In this document: positions 44,803 through 58,527 of the stretch, one piece after another
How the letters are laid out: each line of letters opens with the position of its first letter
How positions within the stretch are numbered: position 1 is the first letter of the stretch
Assembly (NCBI GenBank): GCA_017442185.1
Contig: JAFSAT010000025.1
Location: 1 to 64,000 of the forward strand
Length of the DNA stretch: 64,000 nt
DNA from: Bacteroidaceae bacterium
GTDB lineage: Bacteria; Bacteroidota; Bacteroidia; Bacteroidales; Bacteroidaceae
Reading direction: 5' to 3'
The notes under the pieces: generated by a model
What the model was told of the DNA's origin: nothing
The model's database searches: none
What the model saw: the letters and a program-made list of their open reading frames with translations, nothing else
Made by a program: the position numbers and the translations under genes

Positions 44803-45900
44803 TTATCTGATATGTATCTGAGGAGTACGTATGCCGGGTTTAAGTTCCCCTCCTATGTATAGTATGTTGTCATTGTGACGCACCATGATGGCACCTGCGC
44901 GTGCAAATGATGTGTTGCGTTCTACTGTTTCCCATTTGCCGTTGGTTGTGTTGTAGAGCATCAGGCGTTGATTGAAACGGTACCATTCGGGTTTTTGGTG
45001 CATATAATCCTCTTTTTTTATAAGTTGGTAGCGTCCGGATATTGCATCGGTGAATATTTCGCTGTTAACGCCGCCTGCCGCAACAATGCTACATTCGTCT
45101 GTCGCCAAGATTGCCGTTCCTCCCGAAAGGCTGACGGGTGTGTCGTTGTCTGTGACGTCGGGTAGTGCAGTCCATCTTTTTTCGTTTATGTTGTAACAAA
45201 CTCCATCTGTGTGTGTATGTGCTCTACCTGTGCTGTCCGACGGGGTAAAACCGCCCCACACGTAGAGTGCATCGTTTGTGGCTGCACACACAGGCTGAAC
45301 ACGTGCGCGTGATGGCATCGGTGGCAGCTCCTCCCACCTCTTTATGCTGTCGCCGAGGTTGAGCATGAAGGTGCGGTTCGACGGCTTTCCGTTGCAGTTT
45401 CCGCCTGTGACAAACAGTAAATCCTGTGAAATGGCACCTGCACAGTTCTCTATTGAGCAGGGTAACGAGGGGAGCGTGTCGCTCTTGCATCCGTTGGCCA
45501 TGTCGATGCTGAGGACTGTCGTGAGGGCTTCATCGGTGTTCATCCCACCGACTATTATCAGATGGCTGCCATATTGTGTGGATGCACCGTAGGCCGAGGC
45601 TGTGGGCAGTGTGCCGGCTTTCTCCCAATGCAGTGTGTCGCCAATGGCGGCTTTATATATTCCTTTATAGTAGCGTTTGCTGCCGCCTTGTGCAGCCGGT
45701 GTTTCCGGAAAATTGCATCCGCCTGCAATATATAACGTATCATTATGGACGGCGGCATAACAGGCCGACACTCCTTGCTCGTAGCCTCTCTCAAATGATG
45801 GCATTGTGCCAATCTCTTTCAATGCGGATGCGCTCTTGGGGCTGTTGATGCAGCCCAAGAGCGCAGCTCCCATGAGTAATAAAGAAATGCTTTTTTTCAT
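44803..45900 (-). CDS. nanM: N-acetylneuraminate mutarotase, NanM-like kelch lipoprotein
   Basis: A 365-residue cyclically permuted kelch-propeller protein of the NanM type, which converts alpha-sialic acid released by sialidases to the beta anomer. The signal ends in a lipobox (LLGC, Cys16), so it is lipid-anchored in the envelope. Kelch blades are visible: DTLYIAGGCNFPETPAAQGG near residue 55, HLIIVGGMN near 112, LLFVTGGNCN near 160 and ALYVWGGFTPSDS near 210. It is the last gene of the sialic acid operon; its ATG overlaps the transporter stop by one base. Assignment rests on context plus the kelch pattern. Confidence 0.88.
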   Translation of the reverse strand: MKKSISLLLMGAALLGCINSPKSASALKEIGTMPSFERGYEQGVSACYAAVHNDTLYIAGGCNFPETPAAQGGSKRYYKGIYKAAIGDTLHWEKAGTLPTASAYGASTQYGSHLIIVGGMNTDEALTTVLSIDMANGCKSDTLPSLPCSIENCAGAISQDLLFVTGGNCNGKPSNRTFMLNLGDSIKRWEELPPMPSRARVQPVCAATNDALYVWGGFTPSDSTGRAHTHTDGVCYNINEKRWTALPDVTDNDTPVSLSGGTAILATDECSIVAAGGVNSEIFTDAISGRYQLIKKEDYMHQKPEWYRFNQRLMLYNTTNGKWETVERNTSFARAGAIMVRHNDNILYIGGELKPGIRTPQIHIR

Positions 45901-47168
45901 TATTCCATGTTTACGGTTTTTGGACGCAGCATGATAATCTGTATCAGCAACGATAGCACTGTCACTCCTCCAAGGAGCGCAAATCCTGTGCCGAGCGACA
46001 GATTACCTAATGCAGTGGTGATGGCTGCACCACCAAGCACACCTGACATGTTTATGAAGCCATAAGCCGTAGCGCGTTGACGCGAGGGGATAAACTGACA
46101 CAATATAGGCATGTTGTTTGTGTCGAAGAATCCGTAGCCTATTCCGAAGCATAATATTGCCAATATAACGGCCAAGAGACTGTCGCCAAGACCCATAAAT
46201 ATCAACGATGGAACAATGAGCGCAAGGCCTATGCTGCTGGTATATACGCGTCCGCGTACATTTTTCTGCACCCAATTGTCGGAGAGTTTACCGCCTATCA
46301 TGGCACCGAGGAACGATGCTCCTGCAAGGCTTATCACTGCAATGGGGCCGGCATAGTTCATGGCTACACCCACCTCCATACCCCAATTATCGGCTATTAC
46401 GTTGGCCAAAAGTTCGGGTAACCAGTTCTTTGTGGCCCATCCGGGCATGCTTAGTGTGGTAAATACAAACAGAACAGCCCAGAATGCCATATTGCTGAGC
46501 ACCATTGCAATGCTCTTGGCCACGCTTGGTTGTGCTGAATCGGTGTTTTGTGTTGTACTTGCTGATTTCTTTTCGCGTCCGGGGTCGGTTACAAAAAGTA
46601 TAAGCACCACTGCGTAAATCATACCTGCAAGACCGCAAACAAGGAACACCGTATGCCAATTGAGAAGGCCCGAGAATATCGAACCGAATCCGCCGGCAAT
46701 CTGTCCCAGATATAGTCCGGTCATGTGTATGCCTATTGCCATCGAGCGCGTCTTGCCACTGTGTATGTCGGCAATCAGCGATAGGGCGGCAGGAATGTAG
46801 AGTGCCTCGCTGAAGCCCATCACTGCACGCAAAGCATACAGTTCCCAATAGCTGTCTACAAAGCCCATGAGGAATGTCACTGCCGACCAAACAAAGAGGC
46901 TTCCGACAATGAGATTCTTGCGGTTAAGACGGTCGGCTATGGCGCCGGATATGGGACTCATAAGGCCGTATATCCACATAAAGGCTGCCATAAGGGCGCC
47001 CCAGCCCCACGGACCTGTGTAGCTTGTGGCCACTTCCATTATATCTTCGGACATGGCAAACCTCATGGTGCTTAGCATCTGTCGGTCCATATAGTTGAGG
47101 AATGCAACACCCGAGAGTAGCAGCACCACAAGCCAGGGGTACCATTTCTTTTCTGTTATCTTGCTCAT
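45900..47168 (-). CDS. nanT: Sialic acid transporter, MFS (NanT-type)
   Basis: A 422-residue major facilitator with 12 predicted helices. The loop 2-3 signature is in PISGAIADRLNRKNLI near residue 72, with a second half signature GGKLSDNWVQKNVRGR near residue 280. N-acetylneuraminate uptake in Bacteroides fragilis is by an MFS protein encoded in the nanLET operon, and the same gene order is present here: lyase, epimerase, transporter. It brings free sialic acid across the inner membrane. The mutarotase gene overlaps its stop, and the epimerase gene ends 13 bases before it begins. The assignment is mainly contextual, because MFS sequence alone does not fix the substrate. Confidence 0.85.
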   Translation of the reverse strand: MSKITEKKWYPWLVVLLLSGVAFLNYMDRQMLSTMRFAMSEDIMEVATSYTGPWGWGALMAAFMWIYGLMSPISGAIADRLNRKNLIVGSLFVWSAVTFLMGFVDSYWELYALRAVMGFSEALYIPAALSLIADIHSGKTRSMAIGIHMTGLYLGQIAGGFGSIFSGLLNWHTVFLVCGLAGMIYAVVLILFVTDPGREKKSASTTQNTDSAQPSVAKSIAMVLSNMAFWAVLFVFTTLSMPGWATKNWLPELLANVIADNWGMEVGVAMNYAGPIAVISLAGASFLGAMIGGKLSDNWVQKNVRGRVYTSSIGLALIVPSLIFMGLGDSLLAVILAILCFGIGYGFFDTNNMPILCQFIPSRQRATAYGFINMSGVLGGAAITTALGNLSLGTGFALLGGVTVLSLLIQIIMLRPKTVNME

Positions 47169-47181
47169 TTTTTGTTTGTGA

Positions 47182-48363
47182 TTACATTTTGTCTGTTAAT
47201 ATTCTGCATAGTTCGTAGCTCTTTACAAGCATGCGGGGTATGTGGAAAGGCCCTTTGAAAATGTTGCCCTTGGCAGGTTGTGCCACTGTGCCGTCGCGAT
47301 GCAGATAGCCGTACCACTCGCCATATTCTGTGTCGGGGAAATGGGCGTATGTCCATTCGCTGATTTGTTTGTGCCAAATGAGGTATTTATCGTCGCCGGT
47401 GGCTTCGTAGGCATAGAGTGTGGCTATGATGGCTTCGGTTTGCGGCCACCAGAATTTCATATCCTGTGAATAGTCTTGCGGAGGAAGGTTGCGGCAGTCG
47501 CGGAAATTTATTATGCCGCCATACTGCTTGTCCCATCCCCACTCCCACGACCAATCGAGTATAGTGAGTGCTTGTCGGGTCAGCTCTTCTTCCCAATTGC
47601 GATGTTTGGCCTCTTCCAACAGGAACCATGCTGTTTCGATGCAGTGGCCGGGGTTTATGGTGCGGCCGTTTATTGTGTCGATAAATTCGCCGTTGGGGCC
47701 TACTGTTTCGAGCAGAGCTTTAAATTCGGGCTTCATGAAATCTTTCAGCGATGCTATCGACTCGTTTATCTGTGCATCTAAATCGGGGTCTTCTATCACA
47801 GTGCGTATGCGCGATGCGGTGTTAATGAGAATCATCACCAAGGAGTGCCCCTTTGCCTGAAGGGTCTCTAAATACTTTGGAGGCATGTAGCCGGGGGTAG
47901 CCACAAAGTGGCGTATGTCTTTGAACAGCTTAAGTGCCTTTTGTGCGTATGCGGCATCGCCCGAGGCTTTTGCATATTCGGCCATTGCAATGGCTGCAAA
48001 GCTCTCCGAGAATACGTAGCGGCGCTTGCGCAGGGGTGTACCGTCGGCCATCACCTCGAAATACATGCGTCCGTCACTGTCGAAGCAGTGTGCCTCAATA
48101 AAGTCGAGTGTGAGCTTAGCCGCTTCCAACCATTGTGGATTTTTTTCCACAGTGTTGTAGGCAAAACTGCAAACAAAAGCGAAACGTCCTTGGAACCATA
48201 CAGATTTTGTGCTGTCTATGAGACTGCCGTCGCGGTCGAGGCAGGTGTATACGCCACCGTTCACACGATCCAGCCCATGCTCAAGCCAAAAAGGCATGAT
48301 ATTATCCACAAGGTCTTTGCGGTATTGCGTCTGCCACTCGGTAAGATATTCTTTCCAATTCAT
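47182..48363 (-). CDS. nanE: N-acylglucosamine 2-epimerase (AGE/renin-binding type NanE)
   Basis: A 393-residue cytosolic enzyme with the (alpha/alpha)6-barrel of the AGE family. It interconverts N-acetylmannosamine and N-acetylglucosamine directly, unlike the phosphate-dependent NanE of E. coli. NPGHCIETAWFLLEEA near residue 243 carries the conserved His/Glu of the active site, and a second catalytic His probably lies in the C-terminal third near KFWWPQTEAI. Bacteroides fragilis uses exactly this type of epimerase for sialic acid use. It follows the lyase gene by 26 bases and precedes nanT by 13. Confidence 0.92.
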   Translation of the reverse strand: MNWKEYLTEWQTQYRKDLVDNIMPFWLEHGLDRVNGGVYTCLDRDGSLIDSTKSVWFQGRFAFVCSFAYNTVEKNPQWLEAAKLTLDFIEAHCFDSDGRMYFEVMADGTPLRKRRYVFSESFAAIAMAEYAKASGDAAYAQKALKLFKDIRHFVATPGYMPPKYLETLQAKGHSLVMILINTASRIRTVIEDPDLDAQINESIASLKDFMKPEFKALLETVGPNGEFIDTINGRTINPGHCIETAWFLLEEAKHRNWEEELTRQALTILDWSWEWGWDKQYGGIINFRDCRNLPPQDYSQDMKFWWPQTEAIIATLYAYEATGDDKYLIWHKQISEWTYAHFPDTEYGEWYGYLHRDGTVAQPAKGNIFKGPFHIPRMLVKSYELCRILTDKM

Positions 48364-48389
48364 ATTGCCGTTGGTTTTGAAACTGTTTC

Positions 48390-49307
48390 TCAGAATTTGT
48401 TGCAGCGCTCAAAGAAGTTTATGGCTTCAAGCTCTTTGCGCATTGCAACCTCCTCTTCGTCGGTCATATTGCGGAATGGTGTGCGGTTTTTGCCAAGGTC
48501 AAGGCCTATGAGCTTCATTATTCTCTTTCCACCAACAATGTTACCGCGGTAGTTGCATATTACGTTTATAACCTCTTGTGAGAAATTTTGCAGCTCACGT
48601 GCTTTCTCAAGGTCGCCTGCGTTCCACGCTTCGATGATGCCCACGAGGTTGCAGCCGTTGTAGTTTGTTGTGCCGCCTATACCGCCTTGAGCACCTCCCA
48701 TTGCAAGGCAGGGAAGTATCGTCTCGTCCTGTCCATGAAGCATATCGAATTTACCATTCTTATAAAGGCGGCATTGATTGTATTCGTAGAGACTTTCAAA
48801 TGTATATTTTATTCCTGCGAAATTGGGGATTCTGCCGTCCACTGCTTGCAAGAAGCTTACCATAGACAAGTATGCTCCGTTGAATGCCGGAATATGGTAG
48901 AAGTAGAATGGCAATTCGGGAGCTGCCGATGCTATCTCCTCGCAATATTTTACAAGTTCCTCTACGCGACCAACTTTTGGGAAAGGGGGTGCCATGGCGC
49001 CAATGCCGAATACTCCCAGCTTCTGTGCATGCTCGGCCATGCGGCGGCTCGATTTTACGCATGTGCTACCCACATGTACTATTATCTTGAAGTCTTTGGG
49101 TGCTGCTGCCACCCATGCTTCGGTGAGCTTGATGCGCTCCTCTTCGGTGAGCATATATCCTTCGCCCGATGAGCCATTGATGAATACGCCTTTCAGCCCG
49201 TTCTTTGCGAGCATTTGGGCATAGGCGGGAATGGGTTCGTAGTTTACTTCGCCGTTCTCATAGAAAGGGGTGAACGGTGCATTGATAAGGCCTAAAATCT
49301 TTTCCAT
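48390..49307 (-). CDS. nanL: N-acetylneuraminate lyase
   Basis: A 305-residue class I aldolase of the DapA/NanA family, splitting N-acetylneuraminate into pyruvate and N-acetylmannosamine. The GSSGEGYMLTEEER sequence near residues 45-58 fits the pyruvate-binding motif. FYFYHIPAFNG near residue 136 contains the catalytic-region Tyr, and the Schiff-base Lys is in FAGIKYTFESLYEY near residue 165. Together with the following epimerase and transporter it reproduces the Bacteroides nanLET arrangement. It is the first gene of the operon. No clear promoter or operator is visible in the roughly 150 bases upstream, so regulation is undetermined. Confidence 0.93.
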   Translation of the reverse strand: MEKILGLINAPFTPFYENGEVNYEPIPAYAQMLAKNGLKGVFINGSSGEGYMLTEEERIKLTEAWVAAAPKDFKIIVHVGSTCVKSSRRMAEHAQKLGVFGIGAMAPPFPKVGRVEELVKYCEEIASAAPELPFYFYHIPAFNGAYLSMVSFLQAVDGRIPNFAGIKYTFESLYEYNQCRLYKNGKFDMLHGQDETILPCLAMGGAQGGIGGTTNYNGCNLVGIIEAWNAGDLEKARELQNFSQEVINVICNYRGNIVGGKRIMKLIGLDLGKNRTPFRNMTDEEEVAMRKELEAINFFERCNKF

Positions 49308-50368: not shown

Positions 50369-53300
50369 TCACTTTTTTATGCTGTGCGCTTCTCTCTCTT
50401 TGTTTAGTCGTTCCAATATTTGCTTATAGTAGCGCGGTTTTAATGAGTATGAATTTATACGTACTCCTAAGGTGTCGCTCTCTACTTTGTAACTATATAC
50501 AGAGTCATTTGTTTCATTATATATCATAATGTTTTTTGTCATTCCATCATAGGTTGATAATTGTGCTTTCAGCGAGTCTATGCTTCCGGTGAAGTGTGTG
50601 GTCATGTCCCAATCGTTAATTTGGAGAACTAATCCTTCGTGCTTCATTCCTTGTTCTGAAAGGGCGCCATCTTCATTTGGCACAAATTCAAACATGTGTG
50701 GATATATGTGCTGTTTGAGTAATCTTTCTATTCTTTTATACTCGGCTGTGGTGCAATAATATTTTTTGTAGCTGATGTTTGATAATTTGCTGTCGCCTAT
50801 GGGAATATCAATGTCCATAAAATCATACTCCTTTGTCTCTTCGTTGAAGCGCAGCACCTTAAAGTGATGCGGAACGTCGTTGCTTGGTTCTGTGTCAAGG
50901 TCGTAGAATGGTACTGATGGATTATCTTTTCTTATCCACATTGTCCAATCGTCCATCTCCACAAGAATGTCGCCGATACGGAATCTGTCGTCTCCGGGAG
51001 CCTCCAATGCGCAGAGCAACGGTTGAAGCGGATTCTCTTTTATTATTAATTCTCCTTGTTCGTTGTAAGATATACCATCATAGTAAACGGAGTAATTATT
51101 ATTTTCACTTCTGATGAGGCTTGGCTCTCCAAATTCATTTACGGCATAATGTCCATAACTCTTATTATCGGGTATGGTCTTTATGGATTTTATATATTTT
51201 GCAGTGTAGAAATATGCGGCATTCTCATAGTATCGGCAAATTCTACTATATTCGTCCAAACTTGATTCTGCTATTATGGTATTGAAGTTTTTATCTGTAT
51301 AAACAAATTTTGTGCCATTGTAAAAATACTCGATTATAGAATCGCTGTCGTCATAGCCTTCGCTTCTTATGTTGTCTGTGGTGTAACGAATAATAGAGCG
51401 AGAGTGTTCCGTTGAATCAACAATTATAACATTTTTGTGATAGGGATATCTTTCTGAATATCTGCATGGTTTATCATCAGTGTTGAAGAATCTCTCTGTT
51501 TCGATGGTTCTTACTGAATCTAAATAGGTATATTCATAAGTGGTTTTATGTAATCCGTCCGAATCACCGAGTGGCTTGTTATCGCTTATGCTGTAATGGG
51601 CGATTAACAGGATTTTGTCGCTCATATCCTTTTCTGTATACTTGTAATAATCGTTGTAAGGATAGTAGTCTTTTATAATTATGATATCTCTTGTTTTATC
51701 TTTATATAGGTGGTAGTAGAGTATGGTATCTCCCTTTTCGGACATTGAAAAGCCTTTGTGGTAGATACATTTGCCATCGGAGGTAAATTCTTTATCTATT
51801 GCCGAGGTTATTCTTGTGGATGTGTCATAGGCATACTCCTTGGTCATATTGCCTTTATCGTCGTAGTCGCGTATTATCAGAAAGTGTCCGTACTTGCTGT
51901 TCACAGGATTGCCTTCGAGATTGAGATTCTCTACTCTTGTTGTTTGCCCGTGTTCGTTGTATTCAAAATTCACTCGATGAACACCCGAGGATATTGTGTC
52001 GGCTGTAAAATTGTCTATATCTTGGTAACTTAAATAGTTTACATCTATATAATCTTTGATTTTCCAATATGATTCCGATATTAATCTGCCATATCCGTCA
52101 TAATCATATTTTTTTATCATCACGCTATCCTCTGTTATACGGCAAGGCTTATTGTCGGCATCATAAAAAATGGTAAGAGTGCCGTTAAAACCATCGTTGG
52201 TTGTACTCAATGTTTTCCACCCGCAATTTCCAACCCTGTCGTTCATCTTTGCTCCGTTCAGGAACAGTGATGCTTCGCTCTCGACAAGGCCGTTGCTAAA
52301 GTATGTGTGTCTTGTTTGGTATGCCTTGTCTTTATTAAAGACCGGAAGACCTTTGTCGTTGTAAAATTCCAACAAGCTCTCTCGCCCATTTTCGTCTAAT
52401 GTTGTGCGTATATATATGTAACACGAGTCGCGCAGAATTATGGGAAAACCGGAATCGTCGGTGTATGTGGATATATACTGCTTTTTGCCGGGAACTTGTG
52501 AATTATTGTAGCAATATATCAAGTTATTCTCCTTGTCGTATGCTTTTTCCTGCATGCAGATTTCGCCTGTATTGTCGGGTATTAGTATCCAACGTACAAC
52601 CTCTTTTAATCTGGATTTAATGGTGTTGTCGACATCTTTATCGGTGTCGTCAAAATGGTTAACAAGATATGTTGACATGTTGTGCTCGGTAGTTAGTTCT
52701 CCATAGCCGTTTCGGGCTTCTACCATGAATGAGTGTGATGCCCAACGTCCTTTTTTGTAGAACCAATAGCAGGAACCAAGATGGCCGGCTTCCTCTTCTG
52801 TGAGAATTTTCATTCCTGCCAGCCATGTGTTATGTTTTGTGGTAGCGGCATATTTTTCAACTTTTACGTCAACCCAACCATCGTAGTAGAACAGTATGGA
52901 TAAAATGATTCCCAATATTATTAGTATAAGGGTGTTTGTGAGCTTGCGCTTCTCTATTTGGGCTTTTTTCAGTAGTTCTTCCTGCTTTGTTTTCTCTAAT
53001 TCTGTTTCTCGCTCGTTACGTCGTTTGATGATTGTGTGGCACAGAATGTCGTGTGAAAATTCTATGCGTAATTCGTCGCGCCAGGGGTATTTGTGCAGCA
53101 GGCGTTGTTTGAGCAGGTATTCAAGTTCGTCGTCGGTGAGGCCGTGTCTCTTTGCTTGCTCTATGTAAATGGCGTCGCGACGTCCCTCTTTTGTTACCAA
53201 GCGACGCTCTAAATATTGAGCCGATGTTTCTGAAATATGTCTTATTGTCTCTTCGTAGAAATCGGGTATAATGTTCTTGCCCTGCTTTATTACATCTTCG

Positions 53301-54355
53301 CGGGTGATTCTTGTTGCCTCCTTCTCTTTTTTCTTATATAGCTCGCTGAGGAAGAGTGAGAGGATGGCCGAGTCTACCTCCAGCTCGGGGTTGTTGTCAA
53401 TCTCGAATGATTCGTATTTTGCTCCGGTTACTTTTGATATTATCTCTTTGGCTACCTCCACCGAGATAAGTCCCGGGCATGGCTTCATGATAATCTCCGA
53501 TGCGCACTCTTCGTTGAGGGGTTGCAAACAGTAGCGGTTGTGCTTGAGCAGTGGTATGTGGGTGATGTTGCGTTCGAGGTGCGAGAGAAAGTCTTCGCGT
53601 ATCGAGATTACAAAATGGAACAGGCTGTCCGTAATATAATCGTTTCGGTGTTGGTTGCTTGCGCCTCCCTTTGTCCTTATTTTTGTTATAAGTGTGCTGT
53701 TGATGCTTTTTTCTACTACATTCTCAACCTCTGACTCTTCAGCTTTACGTGCAGTTAGTTCGTGGGGTGGAATGTTGTTTATAAGTCCGGCAAATTCATC
53801 GAAGAATGATTTTATCTTTTTATCGTTCTTTTGCAGTGTAAATATCTCCTCGAATTGGTCGAACATGAGTGCAGGCATAATATATACCTTTTCGCCATTT
53901 TCGGGATTCAGATATTGGAATTTGTGTCTGTGGAAATATTCCCAAAGTGTCTCCTCTTCGTCGTCGGGGTTGAATTTTGGAACAACGCACTCTTTTGTGC
54001 CTTCTATTATTTGTTGTGTGTAGCCTTGCTCGGTGCACACCTCTATCTTCAGTTTTTGGAGTGCACCCTCTACTGCCGAGAATATTTGTGATGAATATGA
54101 ATTTTGCTCGTCGTCGTGTATAAGGCGGATGTATACGGGGAAAAAGCCGTGTTTGCGCAGTATAGGGAATACTCCGGCTTTGAGCAGTGAGGATTTTCCT
54201 ATTCCCGAGCGTCCGTATATGATTGTTTGGGTGTTATATATGATTTTTTGCGAAAGTTCTGTTATTTCGTTATCGCGTCCGTAGAGCTTTTTACCTTCGG
54301 AGTATGACTTTAGTCCCAACCACGGATTTTGTGTGTTTTGTTTGTTGCTTTCCAT
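50369..54355 (-). CDS. STAND-type (nSTAND1-like) NTPase with membrane helix and repeat-rich outer part
   Basis: A 1328-residue multidomain protein. It opens NPWLGLKSYSEGKKLYGRD, a start typical of nSTAND1 NTPases. Walker A is GRSGIGKS at residues 48-55, Walker B is LMFDQFEE at 163-170, and a sensor-like SIREDFLSHL lies at 251-260. A winged-helix-like segment ends with IEFSHDILCHTIIKRR at 431-446. One membrane helix spans about 473-491. The remaining 830 residues hold degenerate repeats (YDADNKPCRITE, FNTDDKPCRYSE, YDYDGYGRLISE) and two PDZ-like segments near 1128-1190 (GDILVEMDDW) and 1241-1310 (GLVLQINDW). STAND proteins are ATP-gated switches that respond to a ligand; this one could sense from outside the cytoplasm. 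It follows the TIR gene after a 116-base gap that is entirely a repeat element. Confidence 0.85.
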   Translation of the reverse strand: MESNKQNTQNPWLGLKSYSEGKKLYGRDNEITELSQKIIYNTQTIIYGRSGIGKSSLLKAGVFPILRKHGFFPVYIRLIHDDEQNSYSSQIFSAVEGALQKLKIEVCTEQGYTQQIIEGTKECVVPKFNPDDEEETLWEYFHRHKFQYLNPENGEKVYIMPALMFDQFEEIFTLQKNDKKIKSFFDEFAGLINNIPPHELTARKAEESEVENVVEKSINSTLITKIRTKGGASNQHRNDYITDSLFHFVISIREDFLSHLERNITHIPLLKHNRYCLQPLNEECASEIIMKPCPGLISVEVAKEIISKVTGAKYESFEIDNNPELEVDSAILSLFLSELYKKKEKEATRITREDVIKQGKNIIPDFYEETIRHISETSAQYLERRLVTKEGRRDAIYIEQAKRHGLTDDELEYLLKQRLLHKYPWRDELRIEFSHDILCHTIIKRRNERETELEKTKQEELLKKAQIEKRKLTNTLILIILGIILSILFYYDGWVDVKVEKYAATTKHNTWLAGMKILTEEEAGHLGSCYWFYKKGRWASHSFMVEARNGYGELTTEHNMSTYLVNHFDDTDKDVDNTIKSRLKEVVRWILIPDNTGEICMQEKAYDKENNLIYCYNNSQVPGKKQYISTYTDDSGFPIILRDSCYIYIRTTLDENGRESLLEFYNDKGLPVFNKDKAYQTRHTYFSNGLVESEASLFLNGAKMNDRVGNCGWKTLSTTNDGFNGTLTIFYDADNKPCRITEDSVMIKKYDYDGYGRLISESYWKIKDYIDVNYLSYQDIDNFTADTISSGVHRVNFEYNEHGQTTRVENLNLEGNPVNSKYGHFLIIRDYDDKGNMTKEYAYDTSTRITSAIDKEFTSDGKCIYHKGFSMSEKGDTILYYHLYKDKTRDIIIIKDYYPYNDYYKYTEKDMSDKILLIAHYSISDNKPLGDSDGLHKTTYEYTYLDSVRTIETERFFNTDDKPCRYSERYPYHKNVIIVDSTEHSRSIIRYTTDNIRSEGYDDSDSIIEYFYNGTKFVYTDKNFNTIIAESSLDEYSRICRYYENAAYFYTAKYIKSIKTIPDNKSYGHYAVNEFGEPSLIRSENNNYSVYYDGISYNEQGELIIKENPLQPLLCALEAPGDDRFRIGDILVEMDDWTMWIRKDNPSVPFYDLDTEPSNDVPHHFKVLRFNEETKEYDFMDIDIPIGDSKLSNISYKKYYCTTAEYKRIERLLKQHIYPHMFEFVPNEDGALSEQGMKHEGLVLQINDWDMTTHFTGSIDSLKAQLSTYDGMTKNIMIYNETNDSVYSYKVESDTLGVRINSYSLKPRYYKQILERLNKEREAHSIKK

Positions 54356-54358
54356 AGT

Positions 54359-54474
54359 TTAAGAAGCTGTTTTAATTTCTACTAAATAATATGTTTGTTG
54401 TGCTGTTTTATGTTTTTTCGTATCTTTTTGTTTGATGGACAAAGGGGTAACGATTAAATTTCAAACAGCTTCTA
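54359..54474. repeat. Dispersed palindromic element, copy H (116 bp), fills a gene gap
   Basis: Ends TTAAGAAGCTGTTTTAATTT (54359-54378) and TAAATTTCAAACAGCTTCTA (54455-54474) are near complements. The right end supplies the stop codon of the TIR gene, and the left end lies four bases from the STAND ATG, so the element is effectively the whole intergenic spacer. Confidence 0.8.
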
Positions 54475-55800
54475 TGACAGTGCCGACGTTAATGAATCTA
54501 TTATCTCTTTTAGGTCGTCTGATTTTTTCCATTGGCGAGCATTGATGGCTTTAAGGTCGTATGGGAGCTTCATGCCCTCGTCTTTGTAAATGTCGGCATC
54601 ACCTATGCAGATGGGCGACACAAAGTCAATGTCGCTGGCTCTGTGGGCAAGAGCTATATCCCACTCTGTCCTATATGGGTGATGGCTCTGCGATTCGTTT
54701 GCTATATTCTCGGATAGCAGAATGATACATTTTCGTGCAGTGCATATTCCCTTGCGAATGGCTAATTCCCAATCTTCGCCTATACTTATGTTTTTTTTGT
54801 CGTACCAACATTTATAACCTCTTTCGGTCAGTTCTTTGTATAGCTCTGCGGCATACTGTATGTCGCGACGCGAGTAGGAGATAAAAAAGTCGCTATGTTG
54901 TGGAACGGTATCAAACTTCTTCTCTTCATCTTCTATCTCTCTATCTTCCAATTCTTTTAATCGAGATTTTATCTCGTCTAAAACTTTCTTTGGATTATTC
55001 TGAATCTTGATGCTGACGCGCTTAAGGAAATTGAGTAGAGAAATCTCCATCTGTCGGTTGCCTATGAGCACATCCGAACTGATATATAGGTCGTTTCTCA
55101 TTGAGTACCAAAGAAAACGCATAAGCCAATCTGAGTAGTTCACTCCTATGAACAGAAGATATTTTTTTGCTATCACTTTGGATAAGTGTGAACCTTCCAT
55201 GTTAATCAGATGCGATTTACAGAACAGTAGCAGGTCTTCTTCTGTGAGAACAAAGCTGTGTTCTCTGTTGTTGTTTGCTTTTCCGAATATGTAGTATACT
55301 GTGGGGTGTTTTATCTCTGTATCGCTTTTTATGTCGTCGTTCTTCTTGGGGTCGTTGCAGAAGATAAGGCTCTTTACCTCTTTTCCGCGTTTCAGCCATA
55401 TCTCCTTCATGGTCTCTTCTACGGTATAATCTACCGAGGTAGTTATTACAAAGGGAAATTGCTTAATGGAAAGTAAATCTTGCAGAACAGCCGAGGGCTT
55501 GAAGTTTTCTTGGTTTGCTTCGATAAGTCCGGAAATATCTTCGTAAAGATTGGTTCTGTACTCTTCAAATTCTTTATCATAATAGAGGTCTGAAAAAGTC
55601 TCAGGATTGCAGCTTATTTCGTAGTCGGTTGTAATGGCTTCCAAGAGGGCTTTTGCAATTGTGGTATCTTCATTCTCAAGGACAAGACTGTCGCCTATCA
55701 CAGGTATAACATTGCCTTTGAATATTTGTTCGGCTAAGTTATCGTAAAATCTCTCTTCGTCGGTGCGTGTTCTTTTTTTGCGATTTGTGATGAGTCCCAT
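54472..55800 (-). CDS. Degenerate SIR2-like domain fused to a TIR domain
   Basis: A 442-residue cytosolic protein. The start at 55800 (MGLITNRKKR) is chosen because an exact promoter lies at 55839-55869, inside any longer frame. Residues 25-240 follow a SIR2 pattern: NVIPVIGDSLV (30-40), VITTSVDY (118-125), YYIFGK (169-174) and LLFIGVNYSDW (215-225). The usual Asn and His of SIR2 NADases read Ser122 and Phe172, so this half is probably not catalytic. Residues 303-440 are a TIR domain: FFISYSRRDIQYA, GYKCWYDKKNISIGEDW and YRTEWDIALAHR, where Glu379 is at the NADase catalytic position. TIR domains degrade NAD+ or make signalling nucleotides once activated. The STAND gene follows in the same transcript. 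Confidence 0.85.
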   Translation of the reverse strand: MGLITNRKKRTRTDEERFYDNLAEQIFKGNVIPVIGDSLVLENEDTTIAKALLEAITTDYEISCNPETFSDLYYDKEFEEYRTNLYEDISGLIEANQENFKPSAVLQDLLSIKQFPFVITTSVDYTVEETMKEIWLKRGKEVKSLIFCNDPKKNDDIKSDTEIKHPTVYYIFGKANNNREHSFVLTEEDLLLFCKSHLINMEGSHLSKVIAKKYLLFIGVNYSDWLMRFLWYSMRNDLYISSDVLIGNRQMEISLLNFLKRVSIKIQNNPKKVLDEIKSRLKELEDREIEDEEKKFDTVPQHSDFFISYSRRDIQYAAELYKELTERGYKCWYDKKNISIGEDWELAIRKGICTARKCIILLSENIANESQSHHPYRTEWDIALAHRASDIDFVSPICIGDADIYKDEGMKLPYDLKAINARQWKKSDDLKEIIDSLTSALS

Positions 55801-55838: not shown

Positions 55839-55869
55839 CAAATATATTGTTATTTATCGTTAAATCAAA
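55839..55869 (-). promoter_or_regulatory. Bacteroidales promoter of the TIR-STAND unit (TTTG - 19 - TATATTTG)
   Basis: TTTG at 55869-55866 and TATATTTG at 55846-55839 on the minus strand with a 19-base spacer, an exact consensus match. The start near 55832 leaves a leader of about 30 bases before the ATG at 55800. Confidence 0.8.
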
Positions 55870-55964: not shown

Positions 55965-56006
55965 GCGTGGCAGCGTCAAAATGTATTCTTTTTGACGCTG
56001 CCACGC
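55965..56006 (-). terminator. Terminator of the TonB-lipoprotein operon
   Basis: A 17-base-pair perfect GC-rich stem (55965-55981 with 55990-56006) flanked by A/T runs, 23 bases beyond the stop of the choice-of-anchor J gene. Confidence 0.9.
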
Positions 56007-56028: not shown

Positions 56029-58527
56029 TTATTTCAATTCTATGGTTGTGATGTTAAGTGTTCCTGTGACGCTGAAGGTGACGCTGTTTGCATTGCCGCT
56101 CCATGTGCCTGCATCGAATGTGCCGCTGTCGGCTGTCATGGTTGATACTTTGTTTCCATTGAACTTTATGCTTGTGAGAGTGCTGCCTTGTGGCGCCGAT
56201 ATTGTGATGCTTGAGCCTTTGTAGCTGCGCAGCTCTGTGTCGCCGCCGGTTCTGGTCCAAATGCGCACTTTGTTCGATGCGCTGCCTGTTGTGGCATATA
56301 TGGTGTAGCCGTTGTTTGTGAATGTTATCTCGTCGAATTCAACGCCGGTAGATGGTGCCTCACTTGGTGTTACCGATGGAGTGAGGGCTGTGGGGTTGGT
56401 GAAGTCGAAAGTGGTGGTGTCACTGTTGCCCTCATTGTCATCGCCGTCGTTGCCTCCTTGGTCTCCGCTTGTGCTGCCATCGGCTGCTACCACGCTAACA
56501 GCCATTGTGTTAACATATTTGCCACTGCTTACACCTATTGCATAGCCTGTGACCTTCACTGCTTTTCCGTTGAGGCTTGTGTCGACAAGGCCTTCTTTGG
56601 GGTATGCGATGCTGCCCACTGCGTTGTTTGCTCCGTCTACATTAACATTATAGTAGTAGCCGCTTATGGATAGTGTGCCTGTATATTCGACATATTTTAT
56701 TTGTGGTGCGCTGAGATAAGCATCCAGGTTGGCACCGTTCCATTTTGTTGCGGTGGGTGTTGATACTGTTGCTGTTCCTGTTTTTGTTGCGGTGGATGTG
56801 TTTCCGAATTGCAGCAAGCCGCCGTATACGCTTGTCTCTCCGCTTACCGTAACCACATCGCCTTCTGAGAAGCCATTATCGCTGCCAAGGTACACTAATA
56901 TTGTGCCTGTGTTGTCGCTTACAAGGAATCCGCGTGCGTATGTGGCAATGATTGTTCCCTGTATTGTTGCGCTGCCTCCGCCTGCTGCAATGACACTGCT
57001 GATGCTGCTCACTCCGTCGGGATTAACCGGCTCGTCTGTTGAACCGCCCTCTCCCACAAATTCGTATGCTGTGACGCTCTTCAGTCCTGCAACACCAAAG
57101 TATTTTTCGATGCTTCCGGTGAGCTTAACCTGTTTCTTGTAGTTTCCGGGATTTCCTTTTAGGTTAAGGGCGGTGCGTACTGCTCCGCTTGGAAGTTGTA
57201 CGGGGATGCAGTTGTTTATGTCTGTTTCGTCGGCTGATGCGGCGATGAGCAGATTTGTCTCGGTTGTGGTTGTTGCACCAAAGATGGCGCCATCTGAAAT
57301 GGATTTTCCGTCGATGCTTCCTACAATGTAACCTGTTACTGTTGCGGGCAGTTGTTTTCCGTCGATGTATGCTGCAAGAGCTTCGGTCACTGTGTATTCT
57401 GCCATTTCGGGCTTCTCTTCTTCTGTGGGAATGCCATGGGCAACTACAAAGTTCTTAACCTCCCAGGTACCGGCCTTTGACTCGGCTGTGTATTTTAGGG
57501 CGAATGTAACTCCGGCTTTTCCCATCATCTCCTTGGGAACCGATACGTTTGCTTTGTAGAATGTCAGCCAATCGGCACCTTCTGTTGCGCCATAATCTAT
57601 GTTTGTCCATGTGGCTGCTGCGGGGTCGCCTGTGTAGTCGGCACTGACGAGTAATTGATGGTTGGCTGCCACTTTTCCACTCTCGGCATATCTTATTATA
57701 TATTCAAATGCAACGTAGGCTTCCGTTTCGTTTGTAAAGTCTACCTTTGGAGATATCAACCAACTTTGTGCAGGGTTGTTTTGATTATCAATATAAGATG
57801 TTGCTTTGGCTGTGCTGTAATCTATAATCCAAGGATAGTTGCCGACGGTTTGTGCAAGTGTGAATGCTCCAAAGTCTGTCGAGAATGATTCGTTTATGTA
57901 GTCGCCGCTTTCTGTCTCGTGGCTTCCTTTGCCGTGAGCAACTACAAAGTTCTTAACCTCCCATGTGCCTGCTTTTGATTTTGCGGTGTATTTGAGGGCG
58001 AATGTGACGTTGGATTTTCCCATCACTTCACCGGGAACCGATACGTTGGCTTTGTAGAATGTTTGCCAATCGCTGCCTTCCGTTGCACCATAATCTATGT
58101 TTATCCATGTAGCTGCAGTGGGGTCGCCTGTGTAGTCGGTGCTGACTAATAATTGGTGGTTGGCTGCCACTTTTCCGCTCTCGGAGTATCTTATTATATA
58201 ATCGAAAGCAACGTAGGCTTCTGTTTCGTTTGTAAAATCCACAGGGGCTGAGATGAGCCAGCTTTGTGCAGGGTTGTTTTGATTATCTACATAAGATGTT
58301 GCTTTGGCTGTGCTGTAATCTATAATCCAAGGGTATTCGCCTTCGGTTTCGGCTGTTGTGAATGTGCCGAAGTTGTTGGCAAAACTTGCGTCTATGTATA
58401 CACCCTCGGGAAGAGTGTTGCCACCTGTGTTTTCGCCGGGTAGCGTATAGGGGGCAGGGACGTCCTCACAGGCATTGAATGCCAATGCTGCCATTGCGAT
58501 GATGAATAGGTTTTTTAACTTTTTCAT
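56029..58527 (-). CDS. Lipoprotein with duplicated choice-of-anchor J domains and OB-like domains
   Basis: An 832-residue surface-type lipoprotein; the lipobox is FNAC (Cys20), followed by EDVP. Residues 44-198 and 210-364 are two nearly identical choice-of-anchor J domains, each starting YI(D/N)xSF and ending KNFVVAHG. A DUF6359-like OB domain follows at about 375-485 (TEALAAYIDGKQLPATVTGY), then a second OB-like segment at about 500-620 (IQGTIIATYARGFLVSDNTG). Residues 680-832 form a beta-rich C-terminal domain beginning TTFDFTNPTAL. OB-type domains of this sort occur on secreted nucleases and binding proteins. It is the third gene of the operon, 12 bases after the DUF5689 gene. No catalytic residues are recognised, so a binding role is likely. 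Confidence 0.85.
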   Translation of the reverse strand: MKKLKNLFIIAMAALAFNACEDVPAPYTLPGENTGGNTLPEGVYIDASFANNFGTFTTAETEGEYPWIIDYSTAKATSYVDNQNNPAQSWLISAPVDFTNETEAYVAFDYIIRYSESGKVAANHQLLVSTDYTGDPTAATWINIDYGATEGSDWQTFYKANVSVPGEVMGKSNVTFALKYTAKSKAGTWEVKNFVVAHGKGSHETESGDYINESFSTDFGAFTLAQTVGNYPWIIDYSTAKATSYIDNQNNPAQSWLISPKVDFTNETEAYVAFEYIIRYAESGKVAANHQLLVSADYTGDPAAATWTNIDYGATEGADWLTFYKANVSVPKEMMGKAGVTFALKYTAESKAGTWEVKNFVVAHGIPTEEEKPEMAEYTVTEALAAYIDGKQLPATVTGYIVGSIDGKSISDGAIFGATTTTETNLLIAASADETDINNCIPVQLPSGAVRTALNLKGNPGNYKKQVKLTGSIEKYFGVAGLKSVTAYEFVGEGGSTDEPVNPDGVSSISSVIAAGGGSATIQGTIIATYARGFLVSDNTGTILVYLGSDNGFSEGDVVTVSGETSVYGGLLQFGNTSTATKTGTATVSTPTATKWNGANLDAYLSAPQIKYVEYTGTLSISGYYYNVNVDGANNAVGSIAYPKEGLVDTSLNGKAVKVTGYAIGVSSGKYVNTMAVSVVAADGSTSGDQGGNDGDDNEGNSDTTTFDFTNPTALTPSVTPSEAPSTGVEFDEITFTNNGYTIYATTGSASNKVRIWTRTGGDTELRSYKGSSITISAPQGSTLTSIKFNGNKVSTMTADSGTFDAGTWSGNANSVTFSVTGTLNITTIELK
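57436..57900 (-). repeat. Internal duplication, second copy (465 bp)
   Basis: Encodes residues 210-364 of the choice-of-anchor J lipoprotein. It is a close copy of 57934-58398, with stretches such as YPWIIDYSTAKATSY and DNQNNPAQSWLIS identical in both, which points to a recent tandem duplication. Confidence 0.9.
57934..58398 (-). repeat. Internal duplication, first copy (465 bp)
   Basis: Encodes residues 44-198 of the choice-of-anchor J lipoprotein. The two copies are separated by about 11 codons (KGSHETESGD region) in the protein. Confidence 0.9.

Follow-up and report, generated by a model that had tools for sequence, protein, structure and literature searches.

Counter-invader proteins of the nSTAND1 clade have been described with varied C-terminal sensors and with effectors, for example TIR domains, that are fused to them or encoded alongside (eLife 2021, PMC8195603). 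At one of the loci described for diversity-generating retroelements, the NACHT and lectin-like domains of the target are predicted to be periplasmic (PNAS 2024, PMC10907252). Based on excerpts of these papers, to which our statements on cited work refer throughout, they are the closest published descriptions of a gene pair that we analyse here. It lies at positions 50369 to 55800 of a 64,000-nucleotide stretch of DNA (the window) from a gut bacterium of the Bacteroidaceae (contig JAFSAT010000025.1 of assembly GCA_017442185.1), and encodes a protein with a SIR2-like and a TIR domain (SIR2-TIR) next to a transmembrane nSTAND1 NTPase. On balance, we consider it probable that the pair is an accessory two-gene conflict module, in which an outside-in STAND receptor triggers a predicted TIR NAD-degrading enzyme (NADase).

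With the nSTAND1 proteins of PMC8195603, the window pair shares the NTPase clade and, in one relative, the effector-associated domain (EAD) EAD11. No EAD match was found in the window proteins at E ≤1; EAD11 occurs only in the relative from Haliscomenobacter. That work describes nSTAND1 together with FGS and EAD, and its excerpts mention no transmembrane nSTAND1, no dead SIR2-TIR partner and no periplasmic sensor. PMC10907252 offers a predicted periplasmic STAND part, as predicted here. However, this is a single locus with another NTPase clade and another sensor, and no SIR2-TIR partner is described in the excerpts.

Within the infected cell, Avs5, whose STAND protein includes a Sir2-like effector domain, senses an early phage protein (PMC12931631). 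A STAND NTPase, a C-terminal sensor and an NAD-directed effector are common to Avs/AVAST and the window pair, whereas, unlike in Avs5, the effector here is a separate TIR protein whose SIR2 half appears dead, and an outer position is predicted for the sensor. The placement of the effector in its own gene and the lack of a PADLOC match for the STAND protein set the pair apart from Avs/AVAST. Zorya is an inner-membrane defence system with a MotAB-like motor, proposed to sense peptidoglycan disturbance (PMC11890865). The inner membrane and the proposed sensing of the envelope are the likeness; the difference lies in the STAND and TIR parts, neither of which the excerpts describe for Zorya.

The TIR and SIR2 folds of the window pair also resemble those of a further system, and the top-ranking fold matches include ThsA and DSR2. 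Thoeris combines ThsA (SIR2-SLOG) with ThsB (TIR) or, more broadly, a SIR2 or transmembrane effector bearing a SLOG or Macro ligand domain with a separate ThsB. In contrast to Thoeris, the SIR2 domain here appears dead and is fused to TIR, and a STAND protein takes the role of the switch. Neither window protein matches SLOG or Macro (E ≤1), and the ThsB matches to the TIR half are weak.

An initial annotation of this DNA could match the pair to no named system, and we come to the same view. No PADLOC model matches the STAND protein, and TIR-type models match the TIR half only in part, the best being the candidate PDC-S66 (E 5e-15, residues 267-366). Matches to NCBIfam models of named TIR systems fall far below the cut-offs. 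STAND, TIR and SIR2 components are all familiar individually; the literature searched gave no description of, and no name for, a SIR2-TIR/nSTAND1 pair of outside-in design.

A conserved SIR2-TIR/nSTAND1 gene pair

Both genes are encoded on the - strand, in the common orientation noted by the initial annotation, with the STAND gene 116 nucleotides downstream of the SIR2-TIR gene. The features of the locus are as follows.

54472..55800, - strand: SIR2-like and TIR protein, 442 residues, ATG at 55800
55006..55755, - strand: SIR2-like domain (Pfam SIR2_2 match at residues 117-234, E 5e-9)
54508..54894, - strand: TIR domain with Glu379, predicted NADase effector (Pfam TIR_2, residues 305-431, E 5e-20)
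50369..54355, - strand: transmembrane nSTAND1 protein, 1328 residues (open reading frame, Pfam and hydropathy)
53033..54325, - strand: nSTAND1 NTPase domain, residues 11-441 (Pfam, E 2e-23)
54188..54214, - strand: Walker A motif GRSGIGKSS, residues 48-56, with Lys54 (sequence)
53846..53860, - strand: Walker B motif DQFEE, residues 166-170 (sequence)
52886..52942, - strand: single transmembrane helix, residues 472-490 (hydropathy; NTPase side rich in Lys/Arg)
50372..52885, - strand: part predicted outside the cytoplasm, residues 491-1328 (topology and homologues)
within this part: YD/Rhs-like beta repeats at about residues 497-970, then a less certain C-terminal region
55839..55869, - strand: Bacteroidales-type promoter-like site TTTG-N19-TATATTTG, 38 nucleotides upstream of the SIR2-TIR ATG
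55965..56006, - strand: hairpin with a 17 bp stem and no clean T run, probable terminator of the upstream neighbour gene

The STAND-type NTPase with Walker A and B motifs is confirmed. The nSTAND1 domain scores 84.4 bits against a Pfam cut-off of 27.1, residue 54 is Lys, DQFEE is present, and both motifs are invariant across 15 aligned sequences with the exception of residue 49.

nSTAND1 lies directly downstream of SIR2-TIR in 43 of the 44 places at which we found the latter (at L039 as taken from its open reading frames; L and G numbers denote loci and genomes), and the 44th stops at a contig edge. The conservation as neighbours that had been put forward as a check is therefore borne out, although not all places are independent: some belong to closely related metagenome-assembled genomes, and L047 and L065, like L039 and L040, each come from one genome. 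Among 301 genomes of the family, SIR2-TIR was matched in 8 and the STAND protein in 8, with both in seven (E ≤1e-20); where only one partner was matched (G111, G259), the DNA shows the missing partner adjoining. Conversely, 7 of the 11 nSTAND1 places in 201 family genomes belong to the pair. At the level of the phylum, matches were obtained in 8 of 395 genomes. Four close sequences served as seeds for a pattern-based scan of named genomes, which returned 29 loci, all titled Bacteroidales or groups placed there, and a copy in a Paraburkholderia plasmid record keeps the gene order of the window. Thus, the two genes are paired beyond chance. Many Bacteroidales carry members of the family, as do other classes of the phylum and at least one Paraburkholderia.

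The start of the SIR2-TIR gene at 55800 is backed by the alignment with relatives. We favour it over a longer, GTG-started frame because of this alignment and because the promoter-like site sits inside that frame. The site follows TTTG-N19-TATATTTG, which we take to be the Bacteroidales-type promoter consensus. The window contains 3 such sites against 1.4 expected, a count that 13 of 100 shuffles reach and that does not exceed chance. For sigma-70-type sites, the region gives 17 and the shuffles a mean of 17.0, so that the single consensus promoter of the initial annotation does not stand out. Of the terminators said to surround the pair, one strong hairpin is present upstream (56006-55965), while the stretch after the STAND gene yielded none; terminator-like structures are as frequent as in the shuffles (6 against 5.6).

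An apparently dead SIR2-like half and a likely TIR effector

The protein had been described as SIR2-like-TIR, and both domains are indeed found. A double NADase does not follow from this, as the sequence of the SIR2 half marks it as dead. A sequence profile built from 11 members finds KomC, an NADase, at E 1e-8, and the predicted fold of the SIR2-like domain matches DSR2, KomC and ThsA. The SIR2 fold is thus present, but the catalytic His and Asn of active SIR2 NADases are not. KomC His146 aligns with the column of Phe172 in the window protein, which is exactly the column at which one KomC PDB entry, titled H146N, differs, and the KomC Asn is replaced by Ser122. Across 44 aligned SIR2-TIR proteins, the His column contains Phe in 37, Tyr in 3 and Leu in 2, with 2 gaps (His in 0 of 42); the Asn column contains Ser in 29, Thr in 10, Ile in 1 and Cys in 1, with 3 gaps (Asn in 0 of 41). 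As judged by these two columns, the SIR2-like half is catalytically dead across the SIR2-TIR proteins.

The TIR half presents the opposite case. Residue 379 is Glu, as the initial annotation had stated for this catalytic position, and it is kept in 43 of the 44 aligned proteins. The modelled fold matches the TIR domains of SARM1, SPARTA and AbTir. With the fold and the catalytic Glu of TIR NADases both present, the TIR half is likely the effector enzyme, a predicted NADase. Since the SIR2-like half has lost both its His and its Asn, it probably serves as a scaffold.

This division of roles is supported by plasmid pHALHY02 of Haliscomenobacter hydrossis (L028:732-7709), which encodes a His-less SIR2-EAD11 protein, a transmembrane nSTAND1 protein and two WD40 proteins in a row. 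Here, the His-less SIR2 domain is kept beside nSTAND1, while TIR is swapped for EAD11. By eye, three further SIR2 matches lie beside nSTAND1-like genes (L131-L133), and L132 resembles the EAD11 case.

Predicted topology and outer part of the STAND protein

The initial annotation called the STAND protein membrane-anchored. There is one transmembrane helix (residues 472-490), but the term understates the arrangement, as a part of about 840 residues is placed outside the cytoplasm. Among 40 STAND open reading frames, the window's included and the frame-broken places L023, L051 and L072 set aside, 35 have a helix just after the NTPase. In all 35, Lys and Arg are more common in the 20 residues before the helix (mean 7.5) than after it (2.5), with a margin of only 1 in L026, L042 and L043. 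Twelve loci encode a homologue of the window's C-terminal part as the following gene, and 11 of these homologues have a signal-peptide-like start, against a background of 127 of 454 open reading frames by the same crude rule. The twelfth has a signal-peptide-like stretch upstream in frame, without an ATG. At L064 (6122-8416), nSTAND1, a transmembrane helix and GH25 are fused, so that a lysozyme fold, which cleaves peptidoglycan, follows the membrane helix; a DxE motif is seen by eye. Because of the charge bias, the signal-peptide-like homologues and the GH25 fusion, the C-terminal sensor part most likely lies outside the cytoplasm, in the periplasm.

The outer parts differ widely among relatives and include YD/Rhs-like, WD40, GH25 and multiple-transmembrane forms. 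In some relatives, WD40 repeats follow the helix, whereas in L028 they form the separate proteins mentioned above, whose starts look secretion-like by eye. Others encode a BACON-outer-membrane-barrel protein downstream, with TPR added in L071. For the window, the model of the ectodomain is good over about residues 1-470 of 832 (mean predicted local distance difference test score, pLDDT, 71.8; predicted template modelling score, pTM, 0.55) and contains a long run of beta hairpins. Rhs/YD-repeat proteins lead its Foldseek matches, with teneurin ectodomains and OspA below them and with scores that are middling on a second look; this lead fits a weak YD-repeat match in the sequence of the STAND protein. 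Three fused relatives are present in both the NTPase and the ectodomain alignments. Their NTPases are 40% (L062), 49% (L045) and 44% (L060) identical to that of the window and their ectodomains 29%, 16% and 21%, respectively. The ectodomain is thus less conserved than the NTPase, as expected for a sensor under changing selection.

Genomic setting, proposed mechanism and alternatives

The pair is an accessory cassette with a patchy pattern of insertion. In four genomes of the same genus (G067, G046, G020 and G696), the two flanking genes are 133-276 nucleotides apart with no pair between them, compared with about 5.8 kb in the window. These four were chosen among 44 for having both genes near each other on a single contig; at least five further genomes, with about 6.5-18.5 kb between the searched flank genes on a shared contig, fall outside this comparison. 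G186, the only other carrier in the genus seen in the family search, carries its pair and its copies of the flank genes on separate contigs, so that placement differs between carriers. The GC content of the pair is lower than that of most of its flanks.

By eye, the flanks in the window look like sugar-catabolic, outer-membrane lipoprotein and housekeeping genes. Near the relatives, we scanned 80 of 210 listed flanking proteins, with no control set. Pfam returned TIR_2 in 5, RyR in 3 and CHAT in 2 of them. The PADLOC matches are mostly of TIR type, with TPR and PDC-S66 twice each, and PDC-S33, mad2 and mad8 once each. The housekeeping-like window flanks and these mostly TIR-type matches give no clear sign of the enrichment near defence genes that had been proposed as a check. 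A conflict role is supported by the content of the neighbourhoods, rather than by classical defence islands.

Several further observations concern these surroundings. Two of the 80 flank proteins (flanks of L045-L073, no control) are nicotinamide mononucleotide transporters (PF04973) near a predicted NADase system. Sigma-factor-like genes, identified by eye, lie near 5 of 42 loci and form one cluster; the one that was scanned has no Pfam match. At L026 (2195-7296) and L045 (4945-8885), such a gene, the gene after it and a large transmembrane protein are found directly upstream of the pair, and in L026 the gene after the sigma-factor-like gene has a RyR domain. L066 (16727-18280) encodes a protein of 517 residues that, by eye, has a Rossmann-like N-terminus and a RyR-like C-terminus, with no Pfam match; its blast cluster spans 14 of 42 loci. 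In the window itself, positions 45900-49307 carry genes for an MFS transporter and for epimerase-like and lyase-like proteins that, by eye, resemble a sialic-acid operon. Positions 56029-58527 carry a lipoprotein-like gene of 832 residues with internal repeats, and its length and repeat content vary among genomes of the genus.

In the model we favour, the nSTAND1 protein would sit in the inner membrane, with its NTPase in the cytoplasm and its YD/Rhs-like beta-repeat part of about 840 residues in the periplasm. There, the outer part or its partners would sense a cue, for example an arriving phage, damage to the envelope or the effector of an antagonist, and the NTPase would switch to an ATP-bound oligomer. 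This oligomer may gather the SIR2-TIR protein via the dead SIR2-like domain, the gathered TIR domains would assemble into an active NADase, and NAD+ loss or an ADP-ribose-type signal would halt the infected or attacked cell. The roles assigned initially, with the STAND protein as sensor and the TIR protein as executor, fit this scheme as predicted roles. The scheme builds on directly computed properties: the pairing, the domains, the SIR2 residue loss, the helix with its charge bias, the signal-peptide-bearing homologues of the outer part and the patchy insertion. We place strong confidence in the periplasmic location of the outer part, moderate confidence in a coupling of STAND and TIR through the SIR2-like domain and, separately, in the NADase output, and the least in the defence role and the trigger. 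Whether the logic is that of Toll-like receptors we regard as evenly balanced. Here, exchangeable ectodomains, among them YD/Rhs sheets, WD40 propellers, the lysozyme fold and outer-membrane partners, would read an outer ligand or damage and pass the signal through the STAND switch across the inner membrane to TIR on a dead SIR2 scaffold, with sensors that may be swapped and an effector that is swapped in one clear case (EAD11 for TIR).

A number of observations weigh against this model. Five of the 40 STAND open reading frames lack a helix in the expected place, so an outside part is not universal: L022 and L056 are long and intact and have no helix at all, L039 has its helix at 637, L069 is shortened with a helix at 274, and L044 is a fragment. 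Several helices are present in L024, L046 and L059, and four each in L042 and L043, which makes their topology uncertain; the topology is based on hydropathy and charge. The SIR2-EAD11 protein of L028, a distant relative, lacks the His but by eye has the Asn at the other position, so that both residues are lost in the SIR2-TIR proteins though not in every SIR2 relative; the residue counts cover the former and leave out L131-L133. Coupling through the SIR2-like domain is putative, and TIR distances also track those of the NTPase. With respect to phage and mobile elements, phage records yielded no relative, none of 12 candidates from viral contigs stood up in a pattern-limited scan, and plasmids account for one record of SIR2-TIR and two of the STAND protein. 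None of the 19 PADLOC families listed for the 80 scanned flank proteins is a restriction-modification or CRISPR model.

Among the alternatives, an envelope-stress or self-monitoring death switch, responding to peptidoglycan damage, type VI attack or bacteriocins and not directed at phage as such, is possible, though we think it unlikely. The GH25 lysozyme, Rhs/YD-like sheets and outer-membrane-barrel proteins among the outer parts and partners would suit such a switch, as would the flanks of the window, which by eye are not defence genes, the nearby sigma-factor-like genes and the recurring RyR genes. However, a conflict system accounts better than constant housekeeping for the patchy distribution, the empty sites and the rapid change of the outer part, and the idea overlaps with our favoured model, which does not commit to one trigger.

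It is likewise unlikely, and slightly more so, that TIR, instead of just depleting NAD+, makes a signalling nucleotide for which RyR, TIR-transmembrane and CHAT proteins are the real effectors, the window copy then using effectors elsewhere or being a reduced form. The RyR, TIR_2 and CHAT matches in the flanks and the replacement of TIR by EAD11 on the Haliscomenobacter plasmid would agree with this, but no RyR, TIR-transmembrane or CHAT companion was seen adjoining the window pair, and 13 of 40 relatives have no same-strand gene within 400 nucleotides downstream.

We consider it quite improbable that the sensor region is cytoplasmic or runs along the inner face of the membrane. The system would then detect phage proteins in the ordinary manner of Avs, with its TIR effector as a separate protein. 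The helix-less L022 and L056 would allow this, and WD40 repeats are usually cytosolic. The sensing of an early phage protein within the infected cell by Avs5 (PMC12931631) provides a precedent. Against it stand the charge bias towards a cytoplasmic N-terminus in all 35 STAND proteins with the helix after the NTPase, the GH25 domain after the helix in L064, the signal-peptide-like starts of 11 of the 12 outer-part homologues and, by eye, the secreted look of the WD40 proteins in L028; for a sensor outside the cytoplasm, a cytosolic phage protein of the kind recognised by Avs is a less likely cue. That the genes are chance neighbours or a degraded remnant can practically be dismissed. Frame-broken relatives (L023, L051, L061, L069 and L072) would speak for it, but the near-invariable adjacency contradicts chance and the window genes are intact with their catalytic residues kept.

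Those STAND defence proteins that have been characterised in detail are known to detect phage components from within the cell, as Avs5 does. If the outside-in model holds, bacteria would also use STAND switches to watch their envelope, triggering TIR before or during entry, and TIR signalling would gain a receptor arrangement parallel to Toll-like receptors. The family would further provide a SIR2 domain that lacks its catalytic residues family-wide and is retained as a likely coupling part, together with outer parts diverse enough for trigger screening.

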